A program made the translations under genes and the position numbers. The notes under the pieces were generated by a model that was given only the letters and a program-made list of their open reading frames with translations, did not search any database and was not told the DNA's origin. DNA of 24,412 nucleotides. Origin: a virus. Shown piece after piece: positions 2-19,162 of the stretch; the stretch's first letter is position 1, and each line of letters starts with the position of its first letter. The DNA is taken from the IMG/VR virus record IMGVR_UViG_3300010370_000234, positions 1-24,412 of that record; one strand, written 5' to 3'.

Positions 2-583
2 CCGTTATTTAAATTTGCACTAGGAACAGATGGTTGGAGTTCTAGATTTAGTCAAAGACCAGAATTTAGAACAAATTCTGTTGATTCTGGTGTTTTTGGA
101 CGATGTAGTGGAAGTCCATATGCTCCTGTTAGATCTTATAGAACTGTTAAAAAAATAAGAGCTGGAAGAGACTATTGTTTAATGTTATCAAATGAAGGAA
201 AAGTTATAACACCATTATGCCACAATTCAATTTCAGAACCGGGATTACCAAGACATTTTACAACGATAGGTTTAGCTGAATTTAATATCAATGTTCCTCC
301 TGTAAGATTTACAGAAAAACCATTAGCAGATATACAAATAGGACATTTTCATGTTATAGCTTTAACCACGGATAATAGAATATTAACATGGGGTGTTTCT
401 CCGGATGTAAGTTTCAGTAGACAATATTATCAAACAGTTATACCACCAGATCTAGAAAATGCTTCAAATGTAGTACAAATTGCTGCAGGAAAATACCACA
501 GCTCTGCTATATTAGCATCTAAAACTGATACTACATATTCTACGAGGATACGTTCTTTTGGTGAACCAGAAAGTAGTAATTAA
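2..583 (+). CDS. RCC1-repeat protein, C-terminal fragment (5' end outside window)
   Basis: The reading frame is open from base 2, so this is the last 193 codons of a longer gene; the internal ATG at 182 is not its start. At least three RCC1-like repeats can be read: KKIRAGRDYCLML (about 151-190), IQIGHFHVIAL followed by LTWG (about 335-405), and VVQIAAGKYHSSAIL (about 472-516) followed by a degenerate SFG. Such repeats form blades of a beta-propeller, used in many proteins for binding other macromolecules. The stop codon overlaps the next start (TAATG), so the gene is probably translationally coupled to its neighbour, which also contains RCC1 repeats. It is inferred to be part of the same virion-surface or adhesion cassette. 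Enzymatic activity is not suggested. The RCC1-like call is fairly secure; the role is not. Confidence 0.75.
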   Translation, partial: PLFKFALGTDGWSSRFSQRPEFRTNSVDSGVFGRCSGSPYAPVRSYRTVKKIRAGRDYCLMLSNEGKVITPLCHNSISEPGLPRHFTTIGLAEFNINVPPVRFTEKPLADIQIGHFHVIALTTDNRILTWGVSPDVSFSRQYYQTVIPPDLENASNVVQIAAGKYHSSAILASKTDTTYSTRIRSFGEPESSN

Positions 584-3500
584 TGCCATTAATAGGATCT
601 AGTTCTGTATCAGGAATGGGAAAAGGTCCAACCGGAGATACCGGAAATAGTGGTCCCATAGGTCCTATAGGAAATTCTGGTATAACTAAAGGAGAAACTG
701 GGGCGACTGGCATATTTATTTCTAGAGTAGTTTCTGATAGAGAAAACGATACTATTGTTTTTTATACATCAGATGGTAGTGCATATTCTCTCAATGGATT
801 TAGAGGACCATCCTCTTTAGTTTATGGTGTTAGTGGCATTTCTGCATCAATAAATTCTTCGTATTATTCTCCATTTATTGGTGTAAGTTCTGGTTTGACT
901 TTGAATTTTATAGGTATTTCTGCTGGCAATAATGTATCTGTAACTTCAAATTCTGAAAAAGTTTTTGTAAATATAAATTCTTCTTCTGGAAGTTACGGAC
1001 TTGTTCCAAAATTAGATCATGTTGTTTTTACCGACAATCCTTATCTAAAGGGAACAAATATATTTGTAGACGAAAATGATATTTTAAATTTTGGTTTAAC
1101 TGGAATACCAACAGGCATAACTTATAATACTTTATTTTCTACAATAAACGAAGATATAAATTATATAAATTCAGTAGTTCCTTCCAGTAATGGTGGAATA
1201 ATTTTAGATTTGAAGAAAAGCAGTAATCATTGGTTGGAAACACCCATGGGAATAACCGCATTCTCAGGAATTTCTTTGTCTGGAATACGACAAGAATATA
1301 CTTTATTTTTTAATGGTTCTAATGTTTGGAATCTACCAAATAATTTATATTTTGAAAACGATCAAGGCGGAATAAAAAATTATGCATTTTTAGATGGTGT
1401 TAATATTCTGCATATATGGTCTGAAAATGGGGGAGTTACTTTTAATGGTAATTTTATAGAAAGAGGATTGGGTGCTTCTGGTCCTTTTTATTTTACAAAT
1501 ATTGGTTCTTGTTGTTACAAAAAATATGGATACAGATATTGCACAGATGGAGTAGATCAGAGAACATGCGATTCTTTGGGTGGTATATTTGAGGCATTTA
1601 CTAATTGTTCTTCTAGAACATCTATAGATGAGTGTGGTGTTAGAGCTGGTCATAATATAAGAGGAGAAACGGGAGCATGTTGCTGTGGTGTTACTGGTTG
1701 TTTCGATAACAGTCCTGGAGGAATAGATCCATCTGTTGCTATTATATCAAGAAATTTGTGTGAGAACATTATTGGAGGAAAGTTTTATCCAAAGAAAGAG
1801 TGTAGTGTTGGAGACAAATGGCCAGCATACGGTATTAGGCCAATAGATGGAAATACTGCAGCAAATATTTTTTGTCATAAGCCGTGTATAGATCCTGTTG
1901 CTTGTTATAGGGTAGTAAATGGTGTGGGGATTTGTTCTCAAGAAACTGTTGCATATTGTGATGAAATAGGTGGTGATTCTTTTATAAACAAATTGTGTGG
2001 AGAAATAGATCAGATTGGTGGTGGTGCAGAACTTACAAGAGAAGGTTGGTGCTATAAATTCGGTGTTTGTAGTGATTTGCCTAATGTAAAAAAATACGAA
2101 TGTACTCCCTGTGGTCACTGGAATCAGACATTTTGTGACACTCAGCCGGTCATACCTGTTTCAAAAACTGTTATAACCACACCAAATCCTTTAATAAAAA
2201 TAGTTCACTCAGTTTCTTCTGTAGACGACGAAAACGTAACAACTACGTATTCTGATAGGGATCCTACTTTAAACTCTTTATCATTTCAAGTAGTTCAAGA
2301 AACTGTACAGAAGCATACTCTTTATGGTATAGTAAAAATATTAGATACTTCTATAGCAGGACAAACTGTATTTAATATATGGGATTTAAATCCAAGAAAT
2401 AATACTTGTTTTAATGTGAATGTTTTTGATGAAGATGGTTTAACATTAACAGAAAATTCTTTTATAGAAAGAGATAGAAGATACTTTTTACAAATTAAGG
2501 GCGTTCCATCTAAATGTGTTGATACTGATTTTAAAGCAGAAATTTATCTTGCTTTAAATAGTTGTGTTGGAGGATTTACTCTCACAACAAAATCCGATAC
2601 AGTTCCTATAATTTATACCAGAAGCCCCTGTACATGTATAGCAATAGATTCTTCACAAACTGTAGGAGATGTATTAAATAAAGCACCAATAACAATACCT
2701 TATGTCGCTGAACGTTTTTGTCTAGACTGTACTAAACGCTATTCTGGATTTACTGGCGATAAAGCACACATTTCTCACATACCATACCCTTTAAAAAAGC
2801 AATCTGGAATAATTACATTTTGTCCACCAACAGAAAATTTTGAAGATAATCCAATATCAATATGCACAAATTCTGAAGGATTTTGTGTTAGCTACGGCAT
2901 AATTGAAGATATCAATGGTTGTACTTATTCTAGTTTATTTGATTCTAACGGTGATGGAAAAATATTCAACGAAACAAATACAGCTCCAAATAATTGTTAT
3001 CATGCAGAATACAATGTTCCCGGAGAAGGAACCACTTATTATTATACTGGCTTAAGTAATCAAAATATTAGAACTTGTGAAACCAGATGTAAAGTAAGGA
3101 CACATTACGGGAGCACTTCTGATGAATTGTATTCTTTGGGGGATTGTTCTTCAAGAGACTGTAATTCATTATATGATACTGATTGTTGTGGTGCATTTAC
3201 TACAACAAGATTGAATACTTTAGCAAACTGTAAAACTTGCGCTGGAAATAACGAATCAATAACCGGTCCTTGTTCTTTTGTATACGCAAATCCGTATTTT
3301 AATAGAGTACATTTAGACACTAATGCGTTATATGATATAGGACAAAAATATAATATTAATATAAATGAACTAGAAAAAAACGTAATAAATGTTATAGAAA
3401 GAAAAAATTTATTATTTAATCCTAATTTTATCGGTGTAGGAAGTGATGGAGGTCCCTATGGAATAACTACATCCGATTCTGGAGTTGGTGGAGCTACGAT

Positions 3501-6312
3501 AGAAAGAAGAATTAATTTTTATGGTGGAGGAGGAGTTACACTAAATCCCGATCCCGATGATAGGGCAAAAACTTCTTGTATAACTTGTTCTGGTTTTTTT
3601 GATAAAACCGATAAAATAAGAGTACCAAAATTAAATCCAGATGGAGCATATGATGTTTATGGTTTGGTTTTAGAAAAAGAAAATATATGTTTGGTTGAAG
3701 AGAAGAAAACAAATCCCCAAAAATTTAATGAAACAAATATAGATAGAAAATATTATATCTTAATTAAAAAAATAGACAATTCTTGTTATCTAATATACGA
3801 TATAGCAAATCAAACAATAATAAACAGTCCAATTAAAGATTTACAATTAAAGTTTTTTAATTATAATAGCTTATGTTCTCTTAATTGTGAAGACTATACA
3901 GCATCTATAAAAGAAGTAAAGTGGTTAGGCACTGTCGGTTCTTCTTATAGAACTCCTATTATAACCGATAGATGTCAAGATTCTGTTATATTAAATTATA
4001 CTTTAAATAAAGACATAGAAGAAAAATTATATACGTCTGATAAAATTAATGATTATAAAATTTCTGATCTCGTAACATTTAGTGGTTTAAATTACAGTTC
4101 TTCTGAAGAAGTTAATAAAAATAAAGAACTAGCATCTCTTCTCTTAAGTATATTTAATGGAACTTTAAATCAACATAAGTTAAAACAATGTTCTCTGTGT
4201 TCTGGTGATGATTGTTATTCTGATATAATTCAAAATTTATCAGAATTTATTGGTGTTGATTGTAATGTAGATGGTATAAGTGGATCTGTTGGTAATGCTG
4301 AATTTTATTCTGCTTCTTTTTCGTTTATAAAAGACCCAATAAAAGTTCCTTTTAATCCTTCATTAAGATATAAAGAAGTATCTGCAGGATTTCATTGTAC
4401 CATAGGTATAACAGCAGGAGGTCCAGGAATAAGTGGTGGATTTACTGGTTGGGGCAGAAATCATTTAAATATGTTAGACGGATTTGCTTCTGCTGGTAGC
4501 ACTTACACTAAGGTTTCTGCTGGTGCTAATTGTGTTTGTGCTATACGAGGGGTTACGTACACAAGTGCAGTATTGGTGTGTAAAGGCGACAGTAAATACA
4601 GCAATACCATATATCCACAAGCTCCAATAACGGGAGTTAAGGATGTTTCTGTTGGTTATGCCCACACTGTTTGGATTGATTCTACTGGCGGATTAAGTTT
4701 TACAAATTCTATACCATATTCTCCGTATTGGGATGGTTCTAGAAAAATTGTTACAAGTTTACCTAAAGTAAAATCAATTTCTTCTGGTAAATTTCATTCT
4801 TGTGCTATATTAGACAATAATGGAATAACTTGTTGGGGAGATAATTTTTTTAACCAATGTAGTGTTCCGTCAGGATTAACCGCTTCAGCCATTTCTTGTG
4901 GTGGGCATCATACCCTTGCATTATTGGGAGACGGAACGCTTCGTGTTTGGGGAATAACAGCTTTTGGTTTAAATACCGTACCAACAGACAAATATAATAA
5001 AATTACAGCAGGATATCTTCACAACTGTGGAATAAAAACCGATGGTACTGTCCGATGTTGGGGATATACTTACGACGGACAATGTAATTCTCCAACCGGC
5101 CAATATGTTAGTATTTCTGCAGGTAGAGAACACACGGTAGCACTAGATTCTTCTGGGGGCATTACTTGCTGGGGAGTTATAGGAGACGACGGAATATGTG
5201 CTTCGTTTGAAGACAAAACTTTAATAGTTAATGATAATCCTAAACTAAGATGGTTAAAAGAAGGCACAGATTATGCAGACTTATCGCCATCAATTATTTT
5301 TAAGAATCTTAGTTTGCCCACATTATATTATGATACTAAAGTTTCCGGTTCTGGATTAACCGGATTTGTTGATTTTGATGCTAAGTTTTATTCTAGCGTA
5401 TTTGTTGGTGGTTTATATTTGGTTAATCAGCAGATAAAAAAACAAAAGAAACTGTTATTTCCTCCTTCAAGTGATATATCCTTTTATTATTTAAGTTATG
5501 CAATATATAAACAAAAACCTTCAGGATCTCCTAATATAGATTCTTATTCTCTTTCTTTTTACGATGTAATATACGATTATAATGGATTTTCTGGTCTTAG
5601 AACTGATGAAAATAAAGGAATTATTTTAAAGAAAAGAATACCAAGATTAGATGTGTCTTCGTTTAGAAATGAATTAAGTTTATCTAATGTAAAAACATAT
5701 TTAAATATAGTAACAGATAATCCACCAGAAGGATTCACATCATACTATCAACCTATAATTACTTTTAATTTAAAACAAACACAAGCAAGAATACCCGTTA
5801 AGGTTGGTGTGTTTGAAGTTGTGGGAGAAAATATTGTAGACGTAACACAGCAATATTATATGTTTGATGGTGGAAGTGATGAACTATTAACGCTAGACCT
5901 ACAAGGACTTGATGAATTTGACACTAATAAATATATTATAAGAGGAAAAAGGTTATACGATACAACACATCCATCTTTAAATTTTAGAAATAAATATTTA
6001 CTTGTTTACAGTCAGGGCAGTTTAAGTTCTTATTCGTATTACAATAATATCAATTTTTATCCGGGATTAACTTTTGGTTTTGAAGAGTTTAAAACATTAT
6101 TTTTAGATCGTATAGGTAATAGTAACAGTGTTAAAACCAGTAATTTTGACATAAAACCAATACCCCTACAAGAAACAGGACAAGAATTTGCTGGATATAT
6201 ATTAATGACTAAAGATACTACCAGTGCTCAACGAAAAGATGTAAATGGGGTATGTTTAGAAATAGATTGTAGTAAAATGCCTGAATTTTGTTCCGGTTAT
6301 CGTTCGTGTTAA
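583..6312 (+). CDS. Giant cysteine-rich virion protein with collagen-like segment and RCC1 propeller (paralogue A)
   Basis: This 1909-residue protein has no assigned family as a whole. Order of parts: an N-terminal GSSSVSG motif; collagen-like Gly-X-Y triplets at residues 15-33 and 37-43, separated by ITK; a probably beta-rich region to about 305, ending near ILHIWSENGG; four cysteine repeats of the GxCC type at 308-518; long Cys-containing domains with an EF-hand-like loop DSNGDGKI at 787-794; about seven RCC1 repeats at 1264-1540; and a C-terminal domain ending in VNGVCLEIDC. It is clearly paralogous to the next gene, for example QEYTLFF, SHIPYPLK and PGEGTTY in both. It occupies the place of gene 12/wac in T4, so a fibre, whisker or adhesin role on the virion is inferred. 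The start overlaps the upstream stop; no strong ribosome site is visible. CDS certain, role tentative. Confidence 0.9.
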   Translation: MPLIGSSSVSGMGKGPTGDTGNSGPIGPIGNSGITKGETGATGIFISRVVSDRENDTIVFYTSDGSAYSLNGFRGPSSLVYGVSGISASINSSYYSPFIGVSSGLTLNFIGISAGNNVSVTSNSEKVFVNINSSSGSYGLVPKLDHVVFTDNPYLKGTNIFVDENDILNFGLTGIPTGITYNTLFSTINEDINYINSVVPSSNGGIILDLKKSSNHWLETPMGITAFSGISLSGIRQEYTLFFNGSNVWNLPNNLYFENDQGGIKNYAFLDGVNILHIWSENGGVTFNGNFIERGLGASGPFYFTNIGSCCYKKYGYRYCTDGVDQRTCDSLGGIFEAFTNCSSRTSIDECGVRAGHNIRGETGACCCGVTGCFDNSPGGIDPSVAIISRNLCENIIGGKFYPKKECSVGDKWPAYGIRPIDGNTAANIFCHKPCIDPVACYRVVNGVGICSQETVAYCDEIGGDSFINKLCGEIDQIGGGAELTREGWCYKFGVCSDLPNVKKYECTPCGHWNQTFCDTQPVIPVSKTVITTPNPLIKIVHSVSSVDDENVTTTYSDRDPTLNSLSFQVVQETVQKHTLYGIVKILDTSIAGQTVFNIWDLNPRNNTCFNVNVFDEDGLTLTENSFIERDRRYFLQIKGVPSKCVDTDFKAEIYLALNSCVGGFTLTTKSDTVPIIYTRSPCTCIAIDSSQTVGDVLNKAPITIPYVAERFCLDCTKRYSGFTGDKAHISHIPYPLKKQSGIITFCPPTENFEDNPISICTNSEGFCVSYGIIEDINGCTYSSLFDSNGDGKIFNETNTAPNNCYHAEYNVPGEGTTYYYTGLSNQNIRTCETRCKVRTHYGSTSDELYSLGDCSSRDCNSLYDTDCCGAFTTTRLNTLANCKTCAGNNESITGPCSFVYANPYFNRVHLDTNALYDIGQKYNININELEKNVINVIERKNLLFNPNFIGVGSDGGPYGITTSDSGVGGATIERRINFYGGGGVTLNPDPDDRAKTSCITCSGFFDKTDKIRVPKLNPDGAYDVYGLVLEKENICLVEEKKTNPQKFNETNIDRKYYILIKKIDNSCYLIYDIANQTIINSPIKDLQLKFFNYNSLCSLNCEDYTASIKEVKWLGTVGSSYRTPIITDRCQDSVILNYTLNKDIEEKLYTSDKINDYKISDLVTFSGLNYSSSEEVNKNKELASLLLSIFNGTLNQHKLKQCSLCSGDDCYSDIIQNLSEFIGVDCNVDGISGSVGNAEFYSASFSFIKDPIKVPFNPSLRYKEVSAGFHCTIGITAGGPGISGGFTGWGRNHLNMLDGFASAGSTYTKVSAGANCVCAIRGVTYTSAVLVCKGDSKYSNTIYPQAPITGVKDVSVGYAHTVWIDSTGGLSFTNSIPYSPYWDGSRKIVTSLPKVKSISSGKFHSCAILDNNGITCWGDNFFNQCSVPSGLTASAISCGGHHTLALLGDGTLRVWGITAFGLNTVPTDKYNKITAGYLHNCGIKTDGTVRCWGYTYDGQCNSPTGQYVSISAGREHTVALDSSGGITCWGVIGDDGICASFEDKTLIVNDNPKLRWLKEGTDYADLSPSIIFKNLSLPTLYYDTKVSGSGLTGFVDFDAKFYSSVFVGGLYLVNQQIKKQKKLLFPPSSDISFYYLSYAIYKQKPSGSPNIDSYSLSFYDVIYDYNGFSGLRTDENKGIILKKRIPRLDVSSFRNELSLSNVKTYLNIVTDNPPEGFTSYYQPIITFNLKQTQARIPVKVGVFEVVGENIVDVTQQYYMFDGGSDELLTLDLQGLDEFDTNKYIIRGKRLYDTTHPSLNFRNKYLLVYSQGSLSSYSYYNNINFYPGLTFGFEEFKTLFLDRIGNSNSVKTSNFDIKPIPLQETGQEFAGYILMTKDTTSAQRKDVNGVCLEIDCSKMPEFCSGYRSC
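625..711 (+). repeat. Collagen-like Gly-X-Y segment of paralogue A
   Basis: Residues 15-43 of the 1909-residue protein carry glycine at every third position (15, 18, 21, 24, 27, 30, 33), then one four-residue step (G-ITK-G), then glycine at 37, 40 and 43. Such segments in phage tail proteins form short trimeric triple helices that link an N-terminal anchor to a distal domain. The same layout, including the interruption, recurs in the next gene. Confidence 0.8.
1504..2136 (+). repeat. Four GxCC cysteine repeats in paralogue A
   Basis: Residues about 308-518 hold four units that start with IGSCC, TGACCC, PVACY and GWCYK. Each has roughly the pattern G-x-C-C, Cys after 5-12 residues, a second Cys preceded by T or S, GG or G plus an aromatic, and a closing Cys. 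They look like small disulfide-linked (or metal-binding) modules. I recall similar GACC units in proteins of Planctomycetes and some environmental phages, but could not search. Confidence 0.7.
4372..5202 (+). repeat. Seven RCC1-type repeats (probable beta-propeller) in paralogue A
   Basis: Residues 1264-1540 contain seven consecutive units averaging about 40 residues, opened by KEVSAGFHC, TKVSAGANC, KDVSVGYAH, KSISSGKFHS, SAISCGGHHT, NKITAGYLHN and VSISAGREHT. The last four carry the classical closing WG (CWGD, VWGI, CWGY, CWGV) and the first ends in GWGR. Seven units is the number of blades in a closed RCC1 propeller. In the paralogous neighbouring protein the flanking sequences continue without these repeats. 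Confidence 0.85.
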
Positions 6313-6347
6313 CAGATAATTTATACATATTTTAGAAATATACAATT

Positions 6348-9300
6348 ATGCCCATATTAGGATCTAGTACAATTAAGGGATTTGGAGCGACCGGTCCTAC
6401 CGGAGATCCCGGAATTTTGGGCCCACGAGGGACCACTGGAAACGCTGGTACCACCAAAGGAGCAACAGGCAATACTGGAGAATATATTGCCAATGTTACC
6501 AGCAATAGAAGTTCAAATCAAATAATATTTACTACCTCAGAAGGCAGACAAACAATACTAAACGGGTTTTCTGGTCCTACCGGATTTGTTTATAATGTTA
6601 GTGGAATTTCTTCTGCTTTTGGTTCTACTTTTGTAAGTGGAATATCTAGAGGATACGGTTATACTTTTAGTTTTTACGGTATTAGTGCAGGAACAGGTAT
6701 CTCTGTATCGTCAGATGCAAGTAAAATAACAGTAACGTATACTCCTGGAAGAGATCCGTATACTAAAAATCCAGTACAAGATTATGTTCCGTATATACAG
6801 ATGGTTTCTGTTGCGGGGGGAAGTACGGGCATAAATTCTACCAGAATATACGCTGATACTAATAACCATTTACAATTTGGTTTAACAGGATTGCCTGTAG
6901 GAACTACTTTTAATTACTTATACACAAATCTAAATGAAGAAATTTTTACAGTAACCACTCCAGCTGTTAAAAGCCAAGGAGGAATAACACTAGATTTAAC
7001 TAGAGGATTTTCTAATTATTGGATACCCAACGATTACGGCATAACTGCATTTGTTGGAAATACTGCATCTGGAGTGCGGCAAGAATACACTTTATTTTTT
7101 GCTGGAAGAGATATATGGAATTTACCAAAAAATCTATATCTACAAAATACTGGTTCTGGAGTAAGTTATGGTGGGTTTGTTAAAGGATTAAACATTCTTC
7201 ATATATGGTCTGATAACGCTGGTGCAACCTTTAATGGTATATTTTTAGAAAGAGGAATAGGAGAACCAGATCCGTATGCATTCTATAATCTAGGATCTTG
7301 TTGTCTTAGTGGTACTTGTGAAGATAATGTTACCGAAGAATACTGTCTTGGCAGATCCGGCACATTTAGATCTTTAACTACCTGTGAGTCTAGAATAAAA
7401 TCCGGACAGTCTGTTTGTGGTGTTATAGTTGGAGGAGCAACCGGTGCTTGTTGTTGCGGTATTACCGGCTGTATTGATGCCACTAATATACCTTTGTTAG
7501 GTACTTTCCCGGATAGAGCTTTCTGTGACAGTATAAACGGAAAATTTTATCAAGGAAAAACATGTGGGTTCCTTGATAAATGGGGCCAGGGCTATACTTA
7601 TAATAGAGGAAACACTTCAGCAGATTATAATATCTGCCACACATGTGGTGCTCCAATGGTTGCTTGTTGTAGACAAATAGCTGGTGGTTGGACTTGTACA
7701 CAAGAAACTGTTTACTATTGTGAGAGTATTGGCGGTACCGCTCATTACAATACTGACTGTTCTACAATAGACTGTTCTGTTATTAGTTCAGGTGGTAATT
7801 GTAGACAGAATGGAGCATGTAACGTTGTACCAAATTCTGATTGTGTTTGTGGAGTATGGTATGGAACAAACCCCTGTCAATCGTCCGGAAATACTGGTAT
7901 ATTTAATATCTTAACAAATGCACCACACGTTAATATTATTCATTCTTTAACCGTTGCTCAGTATTCTGTTCGTCATTCTTTGGATATAACACAACCAAAC
8001 AAATTAGACTTTTATGTTAATTATCCTTCTGGTTATACTCAAGACTATAAATTAGATGGTTATATAGAAATAGAAGACACAGGAGTTACTTATAGTATAT
8101 GGAACAATACATCTTGTATAAGATTAGATATAAAAGATTTTACAAATAATTTTATAAATCAAAACGATATATTAACCAATAATACAGCTGTTACAGTAGA
8201 AGTATCTGTAGATTTAGCAGAAGCTCCGTGCAGCACAGATCAAAACTTTAAAGGTAAATTATTTTTAAATCTTATTTCTTGTCCAGACGGACCTCTACTT
8301 TCTACCCAAAAAAGTGTAGACATTATCTACACAAACAGCCCGTGTACTTGTTTAGGGTACTCTAACGGTGATATTGTAAACAAAGCTCCAATAGTAGTTC
8401 CATTTACTGCTGAACGGTATTGTACACACTGTACATTCCCAGAAGTTAATCTAGGAAATATAATTTCTCATATTCCTTATCCCTTAAAAAGACAAACAGG
8501 TCTGTTAACTTTCTGTCCTCCTACAGGAATTTCTGGTTCTCAGTGTGGTATAATATCGTCTTTCTGTGTGTATTACGATCCTATTCAAGAACTTAGTGGT
8601 TGCACATATTCTAGCAGATTTGATGGTAATGGCGATTATTTGGTTGCTTTTGGTATTAATGATCCTAATGGAGCATATGGGCCAAATCGAAACGGTGATA
8701 GAGGAGACAGTATATTCGAAGGAAACACTTTACCGGATGGTTGTTTTCACGTAGAATACAATGCTCCCGGAGAAGGAACCACGTATTTTCATAAATACGA
8801 TCCTCAAGAAGCGTTTTATCCGGATGAATTTGCTTTAGTAAACGATTGGTATAGTGCTGGTAACACTGACAGATATACGGATTCTGATGGAAACGATATT
8901 CCTCTGGATTATGCTGATTGGCTGTCCGGAAACTATAAATTACACCACACCAGACTATATACCGACGATAGATGTAAACGTTGTTTATACGTAAACTCTA
9001 AACCTTCGATATTAGACTGTGATGCAAGAGCACCATTTGATTATGCATATTGCGTTGATGAACAAGATGTAAGAGCGCAAGTAAAAACAAATATGTATCC
9101 CGGACAAAACGGGAACTGGTTAACAGCATTTAATGCGGCTGGTGGTATTTTACGACTATTAGGAAATCCATACTATAATACAGTAAAATTTGATGATGAT
9201 GCTTTAACGTACGTAGCAAAAACGTATAATCTAGATCCATTTTTCTTACAACAAAGAATTAACAGAGAACTAAGAAAATACGGAAAATTATTTGATCCAT

Positions 9301-11576
9301 CACATATTTATGGTACGGTTACCCACATAACAGCAAATTACGGTATAACATCATCTGATGGTTTTGATGCATTAGATTCTACTACCAAACAACGTTTATT
9401 AGTAGATCCTTTAGAAGATATAGGAGGATCTGCTATAGATGTGGACGATAAAGCAAGAGATTCGTGTATGGATTGCAGTAAGTTTTTTAATATTAATAGA
9501 ATACAAGTTCCTTCATTAGCAATTACTGATATAAGTGCTTTAGGTGCAGACTATTATGCTTATGGATTGGTTATAGAAAAATTAAAACAGTGTAGTGTTC
9601 ATTACGAAGGAACCACAGCAGACAGTGATGCTGTTCTATATTGTGGGTGTAATGCAGGTCCAGATCCGGATGGCGATGGAATAGATGCTGTTTGTCCGGA
9701 CGGTTGCGATAGCGATTCTAACAAATATTGTAAAGAAAAAAATCTAATAACACGGCAATTAAAATATTATGCAGTTATTATAAGAAAACCAAAAAATGCG
9801 GATCCATCTTGTGTTTTAGTGTACGATATAGGAAATCAAGAAGTTGTTTACGGTGGTGATTTGAACAGTGGTAATTTTGGTTCGGTTTTTTGTAGAGGAG
9901 GAGATGTGATTTGTCCTTTGGACTGCAATACACCTATAAAAATTAGAGAACTTGTTTGGTTAGGAGATCTTACACTAAATAGTCTAGACATGGTAGGACA
10001 GGATCCAAGGCCAGAGACGCGGCAGTGTGAAGATAGTGTAAAAGTTAGATATACTTTAAATCCAATAGATAAAACATTTACAGGATTTGATCCGTACAGA
10101 TACGTTTCTATTACAGATCCTAGTTTCTTTCGAATTGATAATCTTAATAGACCAACAACATTCGGCAGCATCAATGCAACAATTTCTGCTAGATTAGCTC
10201 ATTTTGCTACGGTAACTAGTAATATATTTTGTAAATCCGGTACAACAGATTATTTAAATTCCAGATGTTCTATATGTGCTAACGATAGTTGTTATTCTGA
10301 TGTTATACCTAAACTTATAGAGTTTATTGGACCTGGTTGTTCTGTAGAAGGGTTCTTTTGTGGTGCTACTGCTTCCGTGAATAACAAAGGTTTAACTTTT
10401 GTTGATGGTCCTAATGATAGAGCAAAAAGTTTTGTTCAAATTACAGGAGATCCTGTGTATTGGTTGATTGAATCTAAATATAATTCTAATATATCTGGAT
10501 TAACTATAGGGCCTCCTGCCGGAACTACTAGTATTACAGGTATTGGCGCACCTTTTAGGGATACGTGCAATACAGGAACCAGTCCAACAAGAACTTTTTA
10601 TACGGGGTTAGACACCAGATTCTATCAAGAACACAATATTTCGTATTTGTATACTACAAAAATAAATGGTGCAACCGGTATAAGATTATCAAAAAATATA
10701 GAATCTAATGGTTTAACTGCATGTTTTGTTATTCCGAGAGATACTGACGGTAAAGATTGGTGGTATTTACAAAATTCCGGTTATACAAGTGGTATACGTT
10801 ATTGTTCTAATGCTTCTACATGCTCTGGTTATGTATTTACACCACCCAAATTAAATGTAAACGGATACAGACCTTCTATTCTGATAAACAATTTATCTGT
10901 AACAGAAACTGGTACTGGAGACATTGTTGTTAGATTTAGACCAACTGGTGCATTTTTTAGAAGCACTTTGTCAACTTTAGATAATATTGATTATAATGAT
11001 TTAAATGTAAAGGTTATAAAATTAAATGGAAATACTATAGAAGATGTTACATCTTCGTATATTGATCCCCTCGTCCCTAGTAGTTCTAATACATTTAATA
11101 AAAATCATACAGACGCAGAACTAGACGGGGATTCTAAAGAAACCGGATACGTTATATTTAATATAACAAATAATAAACCACAATTTAAAAACGACGTTAT
11201 TGCTGGTAATTTATACTTGTTATTTAATGTGAATAACAGTGACGTTGCTAACACAAATTTTACAACAAACTGGGCAGCAAAGCAGGTAAAAACTGCTATA
11301 TACTCTAATGTTTATAAACAGTATGAAGTTCCACATTCCAATGGTTCGGGGGATCCGGATCCGGGTTGGCCAGCAGTGTTTGATAATTCCTGGAATGGCA
11401 ATGCTGACTGGGATAACACTTCTACATTGGGCGATTTTGCATTACAAAAAATAAATGCAGTGATTACTGGTGCTATTGCACCACCCATTTCTACAAAGAA
11501 AACCGTAAACGGAATCTGTATAAATATTGATTGTACGGCTATAAATGGTCTATGTGATAACTTAGAAGGATGCTGA
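6348..11576 (+). CDS. Giant cysteine-rich virion protein with collagen-like segment (paralogue B)
   Basis: This 1742-residue protein is a paralogue of the upstream gene, from the MPILGSSTIKG start to the VNGICINIDC ending. Visible parts: Gly-X-Y triplets at 13-34 and 38-44 interrupted by TTK; a beta-rich region with QEYTLFF and ILHIWSDNAG; four GxCC-type repeats at about 316-505; shared Cys domains (SPCTC, SHIPYPLK, PGEGTTY); and a thrombospondin-type-3-like acidic stretch DPDGDGID at 1106-1113 followed by CPDGCDSD. It lacks the RCC1 block of its neighbour. A 35-base gap precedes it, with no clear Shine-Dalgarno site and only near-matches to the late promoter (TATACATA at 6322, TAGAAATA at 6333). 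It is inferred to be a virion fibre or adhesin working alongside paralogue A, perhaps in the same trimeric structure. CDS certain; function inferred from position and domains. Confidence 0.9.
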   Translation: MPILGSSTIKGFGATGPTGDPGILGPRGTTGNAGTTKGATGNTGEYIANVTSNRSSNQIIFTTSEGRQTILNGFSGPTGFVYNVSGISSAFGSTFVSGISRGYGYTFSFYGISAGTGISVSSDASKITVTYTPGRDPYTKNPVQDYVPYIQMVSVAGGSTGINSTRIYADTNNHLQFGLTGLPVGTTFNYLYTNLNEEIFTVTTPAVKSQGGITLDLTRGFSNYWIPNDYGITAFVGNTASGVRQEYTLFFAGRDIWNLPKNLYLQNTGSGVSYGGFVKGLNILHIWSDNAGATFNGIFLERGIGEPDPYAFYNLGSCCLSGTCEDNVTEEYCLGRSGTFRSLTTCESRIKSGQSVCGVIVGGATGACCCGITGCIDATNIPLLGTFPDRAFCDSINGKFYQGKTCGFLDKWGQGYTYNRGNTSADYNICHTCGAPMVACCRQIAGGWTCTQETVYYCESIGGTAHYNTDCSTIDCSVISSGGNCRQNGACNVVPNSDCVCGVWYGTNPCQSSGNTGIFNILTNAPHVNIIHSLTVAQYSVRHSLDITQPNKLDFYVNYPSGYTQDYKLDGYIEIEDTGVTYSIWNNTSCIRLDIKDFTNNFINQNDILTNNTAVTVEVSVDLAEAPCSTDQNFKGKLFLNLISCPDGPLLSTQKSVDIIYTNSPCTCLGYSNGDIVNKAPIVVPFTAERYCTHCTFPEVNLGNIISHIPYPLKRQTGLLTFCPPTGISGSQCGIISSFCVYYDPIQELSGCTYSSRFDGNGDYLVAFGINDPNGAYGPNRNGDRGDSIFEGNTLPDGCFHVEYNAPGEGTTYFHKYDPQEAFYPDEFALVNDWYSAGNTDRYTDSDGNDIPLDYADWLSGNYKLHHTRLYTDDRCKRCLYVNSKPSILDCDARAPFDYAYCVDEQDVRAQVKTNMYPGQNGNWLTAFNAAGGILRLLGNPYYNTVKFDDDALTYVAKTYNLDPFFLQQRINRELRKYGKLFDPSHIYGTVTHITANYGITSSDGFDALDSTTKQRLLVDPLEDIGGSAIDVDDKARDSCMDCSKFFNINRIQVPSLAITDISALGADYYAYGLVIEKLKQCSVHYEGTTADSDAVLYCGCNAGPDPDGDGIDAVCPDGCDSDSNKYCKEKNLITRQLKYYAVIIRKPKNADPSCVLVYDIGNQEVVYGGDLNSGNFGSVFCRGGDVICPLDCNTPIKIRELVWLGDLTLNSLDMVGQDPRPETRQCEDSVKVRYTLNPIDKTFTGFDPYRYVSITDPSFFRIDNLNRPTTFGSINATISARLAHFATVTSNIFCKSGTTDYLNSRCSICANDSCYSDVIPKLIEFIGPGCSVEGFFCGATASVNNKGLTFVDGPNDRAKSFVQITGDPVYWLIESKYNSNISGLTIGPPAGTTSITGIGAPFRDTCNTGTSPTRTFYTGLDTRFYQEHNISYLYTTKINGATGIRLSKNIESNGLTACFVIPRDTDGKDWWYLQNSGYTSGIRYCSNASTCSGYVFTPPKLNVNGYRPSILINNLSVTETGTGDIVVRFRPTGAFFRSTLSTLDNIDYNDLNVKVIKLNGNTIEDVTSSYIDPLVPSSSNTFNKNHTDAELDGDSKETGYVIFNITNNKPQFKNDVIAGNLYLLFNVNNSDVANTNFTTNWAAKQVKTAIYSNVYKQYEVPHSNGSGDPDPGWPAVFDNSWNGNADWDNTSTLGDFALQKINAVITGAIAPPISTKKTVNGICINIDCTAINGLCDNLEGC
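6384..6479 (+). repeat. Collagen-like Gly-X-Y segment of paralogue B
   Basis: Residues 13-44 have glycine at 13, 16, 19, 22, 25, 28, 31 and 34, then the four-residue step G-TTK-G, then 38, 41 and 44. The interruption sits at the same place as in paralogue A, which argues for common descent rather than independent repeat growth. Confidence 0.8.
7293..7862 (+). repeat. Four GxCC cysteine repeats in paralogue B
   Basis: Residues about 316-505 carry four units beginning LGSCC, TGACCC, MVACC and GNCRQ. The third (ending TQETVYYCESIGG) aligns directly with SQETVAYCDEIGG in paralogue A. The cysteine spacing is largely kept between the two proteins, while the intervening residues differ. Confidence 0.7.
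11519..11526 (+). promoter_or_regulatory. Putative T4-type late promoter core (TATAAATA) inside the end of paralogue B
   Basis: An exact TATAAATA lies within the coding region 54 bases upstream of the 486-residue gene. In T4-type late promoters transcription starts about 6 bases past the motif, which would give a leader of about 48 bases that contains a good AGAAGGA ribosome site. Because the motif is coding sequence it could be chance; the position is suggestive only. Confidence 0.4.
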
Positions 11577-11579
11577 TAT

Positions 11580-13040
11580 ATGTCACAATTTAAAAGTAGA
11601 GTTCCTGGAAGTTTTTGGACTTCTTCTTCAACAATAAAAGGAGCAGATCAAGGTTATTGTTGTAGTAGTACAGGAGACGGTACTTATGTGCCTTCCACTC
11701 GTTACGAATGTTTTTTAAAAAATGGATTTTTTGTTGCTGGATTTAGTGAAATAGATGCAAAAAATCAATGCCCAAAAGTAGAAAAGGGAGTTTGTTGTGT
11801 TTACGATGCTACTACAAAAGTTAGGGTACAACAAGATAATGGTGTAACTTTTTGTTCTTGTTCGCAAAGCAATCCTACGTATTCAGGTTATCTTGTTAGT
11901 TATCAAAAATCAGGAACATGTCCTTCTGAGAAAGCTTCTCTTGCACCAGAAAATGGGGCGTGTTGTTATTGGGATGCAGTTAGTGATTATTATGTAAATA
12001 AATGCGAAACCGTGGCTAATTATGATTCTTGTAAACTTTTACACGATGGTGGCCCAGAAGGATTAAAATTTTCATTCTATCTGGGAGAATCGTGCATTTT
12101 TGATGGCGGTAATATTGTGTGTAATGCTGGCAAAGGACTTACACAATTAGAAAAAGAAAATAATCCAGACTGCAAAACAGACACACCAGAAGATTGTCTT
12201 TTAGAAGAAAATATGTTAGGAAATTGTTGTACTTTGTTAGAAAATGGCACAAGACAATGCAATATATCAACAAAATCAGAATGTTCTGGATTTTGGTCTT
12301 ATCTTGGTGTGGTAAAAGGATGTAGTGGTAGCACTTTATGTTCTGGTGTTTATTTTCCAGAAAAAACAGCAACAGAATATTTTCCAACAACTGCTAGTAT
12401 TTCTGTAATTACAGGATCCGGTAATCCTATAGAAAAACTTCCAACAACATCTGCTCTTTATCAAGGAGGATTGTATGTTGGTATATTTGAACCAGGAAAT
12501 ACAATAAATCTTTCTGGTTCTATGGTCTATGGAAACACAACAACCGGAGACCCCAAACAATATAGAGCTAGAGGAACTGGATTAGGCACAAGAAATAAAA
12601 AATGGATACTAATAGCAGGACTTGCCGATACTAATATCCCGCAATCCAGTATATTAGATCCAAATAAAGGCACATCATTTTATGATGGTTTTTATAACAC
12701 AAATATAAGAAATACCAACTATTATTCAACAATAAGAAATACAAATATAAACGGGTTTTCCGACTGGTATATTCCTAGTCAAGACGAACTTGCTTTTTTC
12801 TTTAACACTATTACATCTACTTTCACTGTAAGTGGTTATACTCCACTTTTAGAAAATTATTATTTGACTTCTACAAATTATGGTGTAGGTTATGATAATA
12901 AATTAGCACAAATAGGAGAAAAATATTTTGTGTATACTCAAAGTGCTATATCCAGTCAATACGGAAAAGTAATTTTAATGCCTCAAGATAATCTTAATTG
13001 TAAAGTTAGATTATTTAGAAGAATTTATTTGGGTAGTTGA
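11580..13040 (+). CDS. Cysteine-repeat protein with DUF1566/Lcl_C-like C-terminal domain
   Basis: This 486-residue protein has two halves. Residues 25-248 hold four GxCC-type units (GYCC, GVCC, GACC, GNCC) like those of the two upstream giants. The C-terminal part (about 290-486) has GGLYVGIF, then GFSDWYIPSQDEL at 392-404, then YYLTSTNY, and ends with VRLFRRIYLG. This order resembles the DUF1566 / Legionella collagen-like C-terminal (Lcl_C) domain, a C-type-lectin-related fold common in adhesins and phage tail proteins. The N-terminus contains SSSTIKG, matching GSSTIKG of paralogue B, so both may dock to the same partner. The start is supported by AGAAGGA at 11564-11570, and the gap to the upstream stop is only 3 bases. 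It is inferred to be a small adhesin or tip protein of the same apparatus. No transmembrane segment or signal peptide was seen. Confidence 0.8.
   Translation: MSQFKSRVPGSFWTSSSTIKGADQGYCCSSTGDGTYVPSTRYECFLKNGFFVAGFSEIDAKNQCPKVEKGVCCVYDATTKVRVQQDNGVTFCSCSQSNPTYSGYLVSYQKSGTCPSEKASLAPENGACCYWDAVSDYYVNKCETVANYDSCKLLHDGGPEGLKFSFYLGESCIFDGGNIVCNAGKGLTQLEKENNPDCKTDTPEDCLLEENMLGNCCTLLENGTRQCNISTKSECSGFWSYLGVVKGCSGSTLCSGVYFPEKTATEYFPTTASISVITGSGNPIEKLPTTSALYQGGLYVGIFEPGNTINLSGSMVYGNTTTGDPKQYRARGTGLGTRNKKWILIAGLADTNIPQSSILDPNKGTSFYDGFYNTNIRNTNYYSTIRNTNINGFSDWYIPSQDELAFFFNTITSTFTVSGYTPLLENYYLTSTNYGVGYDNKLAQIGEKYFVYTQSAISSQYGKVILMPQDNLNCKVRLFRRIYLGS
11652..12323 (+). repeat. Four GxCC cysteine repeats in the 486-residue protein
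   Basis: Residues 25-248 contain four units headed GYCCS, GVCCV, GACCY and GNCCT, each with two or more later cysteines. Spacing is looser than in the giant paralogues but the GxCC heads are better kept. The repeat type is therefore shared by three adjacent genes. Confidence 0.7.
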
Positions 13041-13793: not shown

Positions 13794-14594
13794 ATGGCCA
13801 CCATACAATCACGAGAAGATCTAATAAACTATAGTTTAAGGTACTTAGGTGCCCCTGTTATAGAAATAAACGTAGACTGGCAACAATGCGAGGATCGTTT
13901 AGATGAGGCACTTCAATATTTTACCGAACGTCATTTTGACGGTGTTGAAAAAGTATTTTTTAAATATCAATTAACACAACAAAATATAACAGACAGATAC
14001 ATCAATACTGAAGACATTCTATCTCCAAATGAAATAGACGGTCCCACCGGTAAAGAAATAGTATCCATAATTAAAGTCATGCAATTCGGTCAATTTGCAA
14101 ACATCAATATGTTTGATGTTCGTTATCAACTGGCACTGACCGACTATTTTGGTATTAATAGAAATTTAAGTGGTGTGTATTCTATGGGATTGGCAGCATA
14201 CGATGCAACCAAACGATATATTCAATTAATTCAAGATCTTTTTCAACCAGAAAAAGCGGTACGATACAGTAAAGTGACTAATCGTTTATATTTGGATATG
14301 AACTGGAATCAAGAAACAAAAGCCGGAGATTGGATCTGTATTTGGGCTTATGCTGCTCTTAATCCAGAAAAATATGTAGAAATTTATAACGATCGTTACT
14401 TAAAAAGATATGTAACAGCATTAATTAAAAAACAATGGGGAAGCAATATGTCTAAATTTGATGGAGTTGCTCTTCCTGGAGGAGTTTCTATGCGTGGTGG
14501 GCAGATTTATGCTGAAGCTGTAGCAGAAATAGCTCAAATAGAAGCAGAGATGTTAATTAATTACGAGTACCCAGTAGATTTTATGACAGGTTAA
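13794..14594 (+). CDS. gp13: Neck protein gp13
   Basis: The 266-residue product resembles the T4 superfamily gp13 neck (head-completion) protein, which with gp14 seals the filled head after packaging and forms the joining site for the tail. Support: the N-terminal MATIQSREDLI...LGAPVIEINVDWQQ...RLDEALQYF is typical of environmental T4-like gp13; it has the expected order before gp14-gp15-gp16-gp17; and its length is somewhat below the 309 residues of T4 gp13. The central region is helical with an aromatic-rich segment (DMNWNQETKAGDWICIWAYAAL). The start is the family-type MATIQ. No Shine-Dalgarno site precedes it; a CATAAATA motif ends seven bases before the ATG. It is separated from gp14 by a single base, consistent with co-translation. 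Confidence 0.92.
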   Translation: MATIQSREDLINYSLRYLGAPVIEINVDWQQCEDRLDEALQYFTERHFDGVEKVFFKYQLTQQNITDRYINTEDILSPNEIDGPTGKEIVSIIKVMQFGQFANINMFDVRYQLALTDYFGINRNLSGVYSMGLAAYDATKRYIQLIQDLFQPEKAVRYSKVTNRLYLDMNWNQETKAGDWICIWAYAALNPEKYVEIYNDRYLKRYVTALIKKQWGSNMSKFDGVALPGGVSMRGGQIYAEAVAEIAQIEAEMLINYEYPVDFMTG

Positions 14595-18010: not shown

Positions 18011-19162
18011 ATGGCAGGATTCACAGCAGGATTAATTTCAAATTACGGTTTAGTTAGAAATTTTGCCACAACGGCAGAAAAAAGTGTAGGTGTAATGCCT
18101 GTTGCTACTAGCAATGACTGGCTAGCCAGACTAAGTTATGCACCGGCAGGCGTTTGGGGATCAACCGGTAGACCGGTTAAGCCCTCTGATGGTATAACTG
18201 GTTCTTTAGCAAAAGAATGGTGGTCGGTTTGGAATTATCTGCAATATAATGTGGGTGGTGTTGTTGTAGGAGGAACTGGTGACAATTCTTGGCAAACAAT
18301 AGGCGTAACTTACACACCTTTACACGCTTCTACTGAAAATATATCGGTATTTTTTGCTGGTGGAACTACTTTTAGTGCAGCAGCTGCAGCTGATATTGCC
18401 ACTAAACGAGGCGACTGTTTTGCTGTCGTGGGAAATGCCCTACAAGGAATTACTCAACCTGTAAGCGCTAGTGGATTCACTCATTTTCCAAGTACATTCG
18501 GTTTAGACGGATTTACTGGTCTGACCGGTACAAACGTAATTTACGTTGGTGGTAGAAAAAACATGTTCTTAGATTATGATGGTTCTGGAAGAACCGAGGT
18601 AGACAAAATAGATACCGCATCGGATGTTGCTGCAAATATAGCTAAAACAAATTTAAATGCAAATGCTTGGTCGGTTCCTTCAGGATTTAGACGAGGAGGA
18701 ATCAATGGGGTAATAAGCTTAGAACAAAACTTCACTAATAGTGAATCTACGTTATTGCAAGACAGCGGAGTAAATCCTGTTGTATCTTTCACAGGAAAGG
18801 GCAGTTTCTTTATGGGAAACAGCACCGGTGCTGCTGCTGCTGGAAGTACCAGTTCAAGAGGAATGTTGAACGTAGCTTCTGTTTTAAACTATGTGAGAGC
18901 AGAAGTAAAGGGATTAGCTAACGAGTATCTCTTTGAGCCAAACACTGAAAGCAATAGAAGTCAATTCGTTACTAGAGCCAATTCTATTTTAGATGGCGTA
19001 AAGAGTAGTGGAAGTATTAGTAATTACAGTGTTATATGCCCACCAGCAGATAATACTGGTATAACATTTACTGCTGAAATTCGTTTAACACCAACAAATG
19101 TTGCAGAAACTATAACTCTAAGAGTTATAAACAGCACAACATCAGAAATATTTAATCTCTAA
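18011..19162 (+). CDS. gp18: Tail sheath protein gp18 (short form)
   Basis: The 383-residue product is the contractile sheath subunit. The central and C-terminal parts follow the sheath pattern: NVIYVGG, a short linker, ASDVAANIAKT, W-SVPSGFRRGGINGV (about 220-234), SGVNPVVSF, SSRGMLNVASVLNYV (281-295) and EYLFEPNTESNRSQF. The N-terminal third is Gly/Ala-rich and less recognisable. T4 gp18 has 659 residues; this version is little more than half and lacks room for the protruding outer domains, resembling compact sheaths of P2/Mu-like phages. A DYDGSG loop occurs at 188-193. It is preceded by an exact late promoter and AAGGA, and followed by two tail-tube genes, its expected partners. Confidence 0.88.
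   Translation: MAGFTAGLISNYGLVRNFATTAEKSVGVMPVATSNDWLARLSYAPAGVWGSTGRPVKPSDGITGSLAKEWWSVWNYLQYNVGGVVVGGTGDNSWQTIGVTYTPLHASTENISVFFAGGTTFSAAAAADIATKRGDCFAVVGNALQGITQPVSASGFTHFPSTFGLDGFTGLTGTNVIYVGGRKNMFLDYDGSGRTEVDKIDTASDVAANIAKTNLNANAWSVPSGFRRGGINGVISLEQNFTNSESTLLQDSGVNPVVSFTGKGSFFMGNSTGAAAAGSTSSRGMLNVASVLNYVRAEVKGLANEYLFEPNTESNRSQFVTRANSILDGVKSSGSISNYSVICPPADNTGITFTAEIRLTPTNVAETITLRVINSTTSEIFNL

Follow-up and report, generated by a model that had tools for sequence, protein, structure and literature searches.

The first of two adjacent, paralogous genes in the tail region of an uncultured T4-like bacteriophage, here called A, is predicted to encode a complete seven-bladed ring of the RCC1/BLIP-II type (residues 1247–1545, modeled rather than solved), while the second gene, B, encodes none. 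As far as the sequences tell, the two paralogues differ over a whole C-terminal segment, which in A opens with the propeller. The RCC1 propeller also appears, from its distribution in related records, to be a reused building block of this phage group and not a one-off.

The window analyzed here is the whole 24,412-nt IMG/VR record IMGVR_UViG_3300010370_000234 (positions 1–24,412). It displays the gene order of a T4-like myovirus, in which a gp13-like adaptor is followed by the terminase, sheath, tubes and portal, and its large terminase is ~55% identical to the terminases of Synechococcus and Methylophilales phages. A cyanobacterial host, though possible, found no support from psbA in 15 related records. 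Paralogue A (583..6312, 1909 residues) and paralogue B (6348..11576, 1742 residues), each a single open frame on the plus strand like the other window genes described below, are located between the baseplate genes (gp48-, gp53-, gp25- and gp6-like) and gp13. In T4, this baseplate-to-neck interval is occupied by the short tail-fiber and whisker genes. B is followed by the gene of a Cys-rich protein of 486 residues (11580..13040), which is also its syntenic neighbor in relatives, and, further downstream, by the T4 gp13-like head–tail adaptor (13794..14594; phrog_211), used as a bait for relatives, and an ordinary tail sheath of 383 residues (18011..19162).

Paralogue A consists of a collagen-like Gly-X-Y start, an N-domain, a Cys-rich core, the propeller, a unique segment and a 28-residue tail. 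The collagen-like repeats match tail-fiber PHROGs weakly (E 0.008–0.07), and both features expected of a tail fiber or adhesin, a collagen-like stem and a location in the tail cluster, are present. The cysteine content of A, B and the 486-residue neighbor (window 583–13040) is unusually high (3.8–4.9%), and all three carry a repeated G-x-CC...C...C...G...C motif. A loose pattern for at least two such motifs finds 112 ORFs in 57 loci.

The propeller of A and the C-terminal segments of both paralogues

The first-pass annotation of this DNA had described seven RCC1-type units in A, and a unit profile independent of it finds the same number. Pfam RCC1_2 matches A in four stretches with a score of 83.7 bits (cut-off 22; E=5.5e-24), and WD40_RLD scores 67.4, below its cut-off of 150. 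An HMM of the single unit, trained on relatives only with the window's own units left out, which avoids circularity, places the seven units at residues 1263–1301, 1308–1345, 1352–1371, 1396–1429, 1434–1467, 1471–1504 and 1508–1539, and lists none in the 383-residue sheath. Four of the seven are strong (27–40 bits); the other three are weak (3.4–8.7 bits in the whole protein, 6.4–11.6 bits when the domain is searched alone), and the maximum reached in some 300 shuffles of the A block is 6.6 bits. The block boundaries first proposed, 4372–5202, fit these results and widen to about 4321–5217 when an N-terminal closing strand is included.

The proposal that the repeats close into a seven-blade propeller is borne out by structure prediction. 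An AlphaFold2 model built from an alignment of 37 RCC1 proteins at about 30% identity, which supersedes a poor six-sequence model (pLDDT 57.8), contains seven three-stranded blades (starting at residues 1263, 1308, 1352, 1396, 1436, 1471 and 1508) and a closing N-terminal strand (residues 1247–1254) with a pLDDT of 82.1 and a pTM of 0.84; a non-propeller fold was not obtained. When compared to solved structures with VIA-align, the model gives Z scores of 32–28 to UVR8, BLIP-II and RCC1 over 240–279 residues. The predicted propeller (4321..5217) is thus seen by Pfam, the unit HMM, AlphaFold2 and VIA-align. In the viral contigs searched, the architecture of A with its propeller is found in one record only.

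In B, Pfam finds no RCC1 match at E<=1, and there are no degenerate RCC1 units: the best scores −1.5 bits, compared to 5.2 bits in the shuffled B segment. The absence of the propeller from B, as originally claimed, is therefore upheld. It was also correctly noted that both paralogues share the sequence CYSD(I/V)I...EFIG (A 1211–1224, B 1315–1328), after which B runs into non-repeat sequence.

The interpretation of this difference as a whole-domain insertion (or clean loss) is not supported by the alignment. The part of A common to B (583..4278, residues 1 to about 1232) is 34% identical to B over the whole BLASTP alignment (gaps included) and 41% identical in a MAFFT alignment of the shared part, which ends at residue ~1232 in A and ~1336 in B. 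Between this part and the tail, A has 649 residues (1233–1881; 4279..6225, propeller included) and B has 378 (1337–1714; about 10356–11489), with no detectable similarity between them. Homology resumes only in the last 28 residues (6226..6309 in A), VNG(V/I)C(L/I)(E/N)IDC...C, a tail that is also conserved in the relatives of B. A clean insertion can be recognized by its flanks; here, the left flank aligns between A and B, and the right flank does not until this tail. The 336 residues that follow the propeller (1546–1881; 5218..6225) have no counterpart in B and no match found elsewhere. Because this right flank lacks a B counterpart, the unit of change would be the C-terminal segment and not a single domain.

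RCC1 repeats in other proteins of the group

RCC1 domains had been called unusual in phage structural proteins, which is untrue for this group. Of 50 related records, 13 contain RCC1_2 matches (above the cut-off in 11), and the repeats occur both in a gp53-type baseplate-wedge protein and in the ORF beside A. The main carrier in the relatives is a 600–628-residue protein, the first ~90 residues of which match the gp53 family of baseplate wedge proteins (PF11246, with several matches above the cut-off; phrog_232). Its gene is flanked by gp48-like and tail-protein genes, and the RCC1 propeller is an insert that separates the N-domain from the C-terminal part (L121:788–2620, L122:5116–6918, L123:13642–15489, L120:5403–7247, L124:17389–19248 and others). 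There are 19 distinct complete RCC1-bearing sequences of this type, but as this set was drawn partly from an RCC1-motif search, the records collected via gp13 and the N-domain give the less biased count. In the latter, all ten close relatives with a visible gp53-type gene have the RCC1 insert (seven genes are intact with 612–631 codons, two are strongly enlarged and split, and one is interrupted). In eight more distant relatives, the gp53 open frames are 304–330 codons long and have no RCC1, and neither does the cyanophage gp53 (216–219 residues).

The two enlarged gp53-type genes (L128:7120–15349, minus strand, and L129:12180–20001) have grown to about 2,700 codons, and each consists of two adjacent ORFs, with the break falling among the RCC1 repeats in a similar position in both genes. 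The interrupted gene (L131:15017–16862, minus strand) is broken within its RCC1 part into ORFs of 219 and 357 residues, by either a real split or a sequencing error.

A second type of carrier is a tail-sheath protein. One record, which has an ordinary sheath of 379 residues, also encodes a second sheath of 1187 residues outside the structural cluster (L126:6818–10381, minus strand), with RCC1 units within a ~700-residue insert. RCC1 units are also found in very large proteins of 1342 residues (L120:12331–16359, minus strand) and 2210 residues (L124:4120–10752), and the RCC1-motif search returned giant proteins of 15–49 units (up to 2455 residues) in many viral contigs (L132–L208).

Whether RCC1 is in this group a promiscuous virion-decorating module, which is inserted independently, is gained and lost between relatives, and alters what the virion binds, is in our estimate an even question. 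In this reading, the proteins that received it would comprise the gp53-type wedge (possibly with six propellers round the baseplate), the second sheath and the collagen-stemmed fibers.

The ORF immediately upstream of A was overlooked in the first reading. It is the 3' end of a gene that starts outside the window (2..583, plus strand), and its last ~150 residues contain three RCC1 units (residues 49–70, 110–139 and 157–175; Pfam RCC1_2 E=7.3e-11, WD40_RLD 2.9e-12). Its stop codon overlaps the ATG of A by one base (TAATG). At the DNA level, there is no similarity between this ORF and the A block.

Origin and role of the propeller

Searches of viral contigs with A, B, an alignment of both or the propeller alone found no relatives, and the relatives were gathered via the neighboring gp13-like gene and via the N-domain. 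A tree built from 40 N-domains joins A to B as its sister (support 100/100). The members of their clade adjoin the 486-residue Cys-rich gene, directly upstream of it, and none of the 24 complete members from outside the window has RCC1. The close relative L002 retains the C-terminal segment of B at 42% identity, and L034 and L041 match it weakly; these three are cut at the contig end, and the direction of change is called from more distant members. Given that A and B are sisters in a clade with 24 complete members free of RCC1, a gain of RCC1 in A after the duplication would be the simplest history and is favored over a loss in B. An 803-residue fiber paralogue in L029 does carry RCC1 (Pfam E=7e-12). 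It sits in the other clade and is a case independent of A; its similarity to the ORF upstream of A is too weak for a statement on orthology.

A comparison of nucleotide composition between the block and its flanks, which had been suggested as a check, does not set the block apart as foreign DNA. Its GC content is 39%, compared to 31% and 29% in the flanks, yet the excess is mainly in codon position 2. Its GC3 of 0.205 is inside the range of the other window genes, third-position GC is low throughout A, and its codon-usage distance (0.142 vs 0.117 ± 0.019) is no outlier. The last four blades of A match gp53-type proteins at 36–39%, and the phage's own gp53 propeller was considered as a donor; it is rivaled by bacterial plasmid-borne RCC1 proteins, whose matches to the propeller of A are equally good or stronger (up to 119 bits).

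We propose that a single large virion protein, collagen-stemmed and rich in Cys, gave rise to A and B by tandem duplication. Afterwards, A would have had its C-terminal third replaced or remodeled, gaining a complete seven-bladed propeller, while B would have retained a different C-terminal segment. The propeller would then serve as a rigid binding head on the virion surface that contributes to host-surface recognition, and it may represent one instance of separate RCC1 insertions into several virion proteins of the group. We consider this explanation, taken as a whole, to be reasonably probable. Its inferred elements are the presence of A on the virion, the binding of a host ligand by the propeller, and recombination as the route by which A made the gain. 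Propellers of the RCC1 fold are binding platforms. This property, the coming and going of the module on exposed proteins and the collagen-like stem together point to a surface-binding head as the most likely role.

The main rival to such a role is a structural decoration, in which the propeller stabilizes the particle or brings its proteins into contact with one another and has no part in host recognition. This is a possible reading, clearly less probable than the one we prefer: the propellers of the relatives lie in assembly parts, a gp53-type wedge and a sheath paralogue, rather than in fiber tips, and eukaryotic RCC1 propellers are generally known as platforms mostly for protein binding, but in cyanophages and in the sister clade gp53 functions with no such insert, and the recurrent, clade-variable presence of RCC1 on exposed proteins resembles that of host-interaction modules such as the phage Ig-like domains. 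As to how A and B came to differ, the insertion of a single RCC1 domain into an otherwise colinear protein is unlikely. The propeller of A is complete and sharp-edged, and the gp53 event does look clean, with a form of ~304–330 residues beside one of ~612–631 residues; in A, however, the 336 residues that follow the propeller cannot be aligned with B. A clean loss by B of a propeller that the common ancestor possessed is less likely still. A loss is always possible, and the intermediate ancestors of A lie outside the sampling, but the tree and the persistence of the B-type segment in L002 and, weakly, in L034 and L041 disfavor it.

Two alternatives remain. The occurrence of A in a single record would be compatible with a chimera created by metagenome assembly, but the uninterrupted frame of 1909 codons ends with the expected tail, and the codon usage of the block is inside the spread of the gene with the same low third-position GC, so an artifact is scarcely credible. 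We give even less credence to a domain that condenses DNA or works inside the cell. The name of the family and a role of this kind suggested for the RCC1-like proteins of phAPEC6 (PMC7247149) speak for it, but the propeller of A belongs to a structural protein with a collagen stem that is encoded among the tail genes, and gp1 of the Rak2-like phage GAP32, a protein with an RCC1/BLIP-II domain, is a virion component according to mass spectrometry (PMC5259590). The surface-binding head that we prefer is consistent with the location of A in the tail cluster.

Relation to known propellers and phage modules

In phage annotation, RCC1 is usually read as 'chromosome condensation' and placed under DNA metabolism, and PHROGs files it there. 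Here, the fold resides within recognizable virion proteins, so its location in the particle is predictable and testable. The gp53 case is especially clean in that related phages have two forms of this baseplate protein, one of them longer by an insert of roughly 290 residues. T4-type gp53 (PF11246) contains this insert in the close relatives of the phage described here and lacks it in the cyanophages and the eight distant relatives. Searches of the open-access literature yielded no description of an RCC1 propeller within a gp53-type or sheath protein, which by itself is weak evidence of novelty.

Among solved structures, the best phmmer match of the A propeller is BLIP-II (beta-lactamase inhibitory protein II; PDB id: 1jtd/3qi0; E 1.2e-21, VIA-align Z 28.0), which likewise forms seven blades, each of about 40 residues. 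Whereas this inhibitor is a free-standing protein, the A propeller is one domain of a 1909-residue phage protein; the likeness is that of fold and repeat sequence only, and no inhibitor function, such as that of BLIP-II on class A beta-lactamases, is claimed. UVR8 (Z 32.4), human RCC1 (Z 27.7–28) and the ectodomain of plant CR4/ACR4 (Z 27.7) have the same seven-bladed fold, but at about 13–24% identity to A, their roles in UV sensing, Ran exchange and receptor-kinase signaling are not implied.

Phage proteins of the RCC1 type are already known. The C-terminal domain of phiKZ gp131 (PDB id: 4gbf) is a solved phage propeller with a related fold (Z 17.8 to the A model; sequence E 0.026), a much weaker match than BLIP-II or RCC1 in both sequence and structure. 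Ig-like domains offer another parallel, as a fold that many unrelated virion proteins have acquired by insertion, time and again. The Rak2-like phages (GAP32 gp1, phAPEC6, 121Q) contain RCC1-type repeats as in A and have many RCC1-like proteins, but these are described as separate proteins (PMC5259590; PMC7247149), whereas here the domain is built into gp53 or into a single member of a pair of fiber paralogues. The Ig-like domains are also mentioned in the first of these papers (PMC5259590). The RCC1 inserts of the group described here share the scattered habit of phage Ig-like domains and differ from them in fold, since these inserts are seven-bladed propellers.
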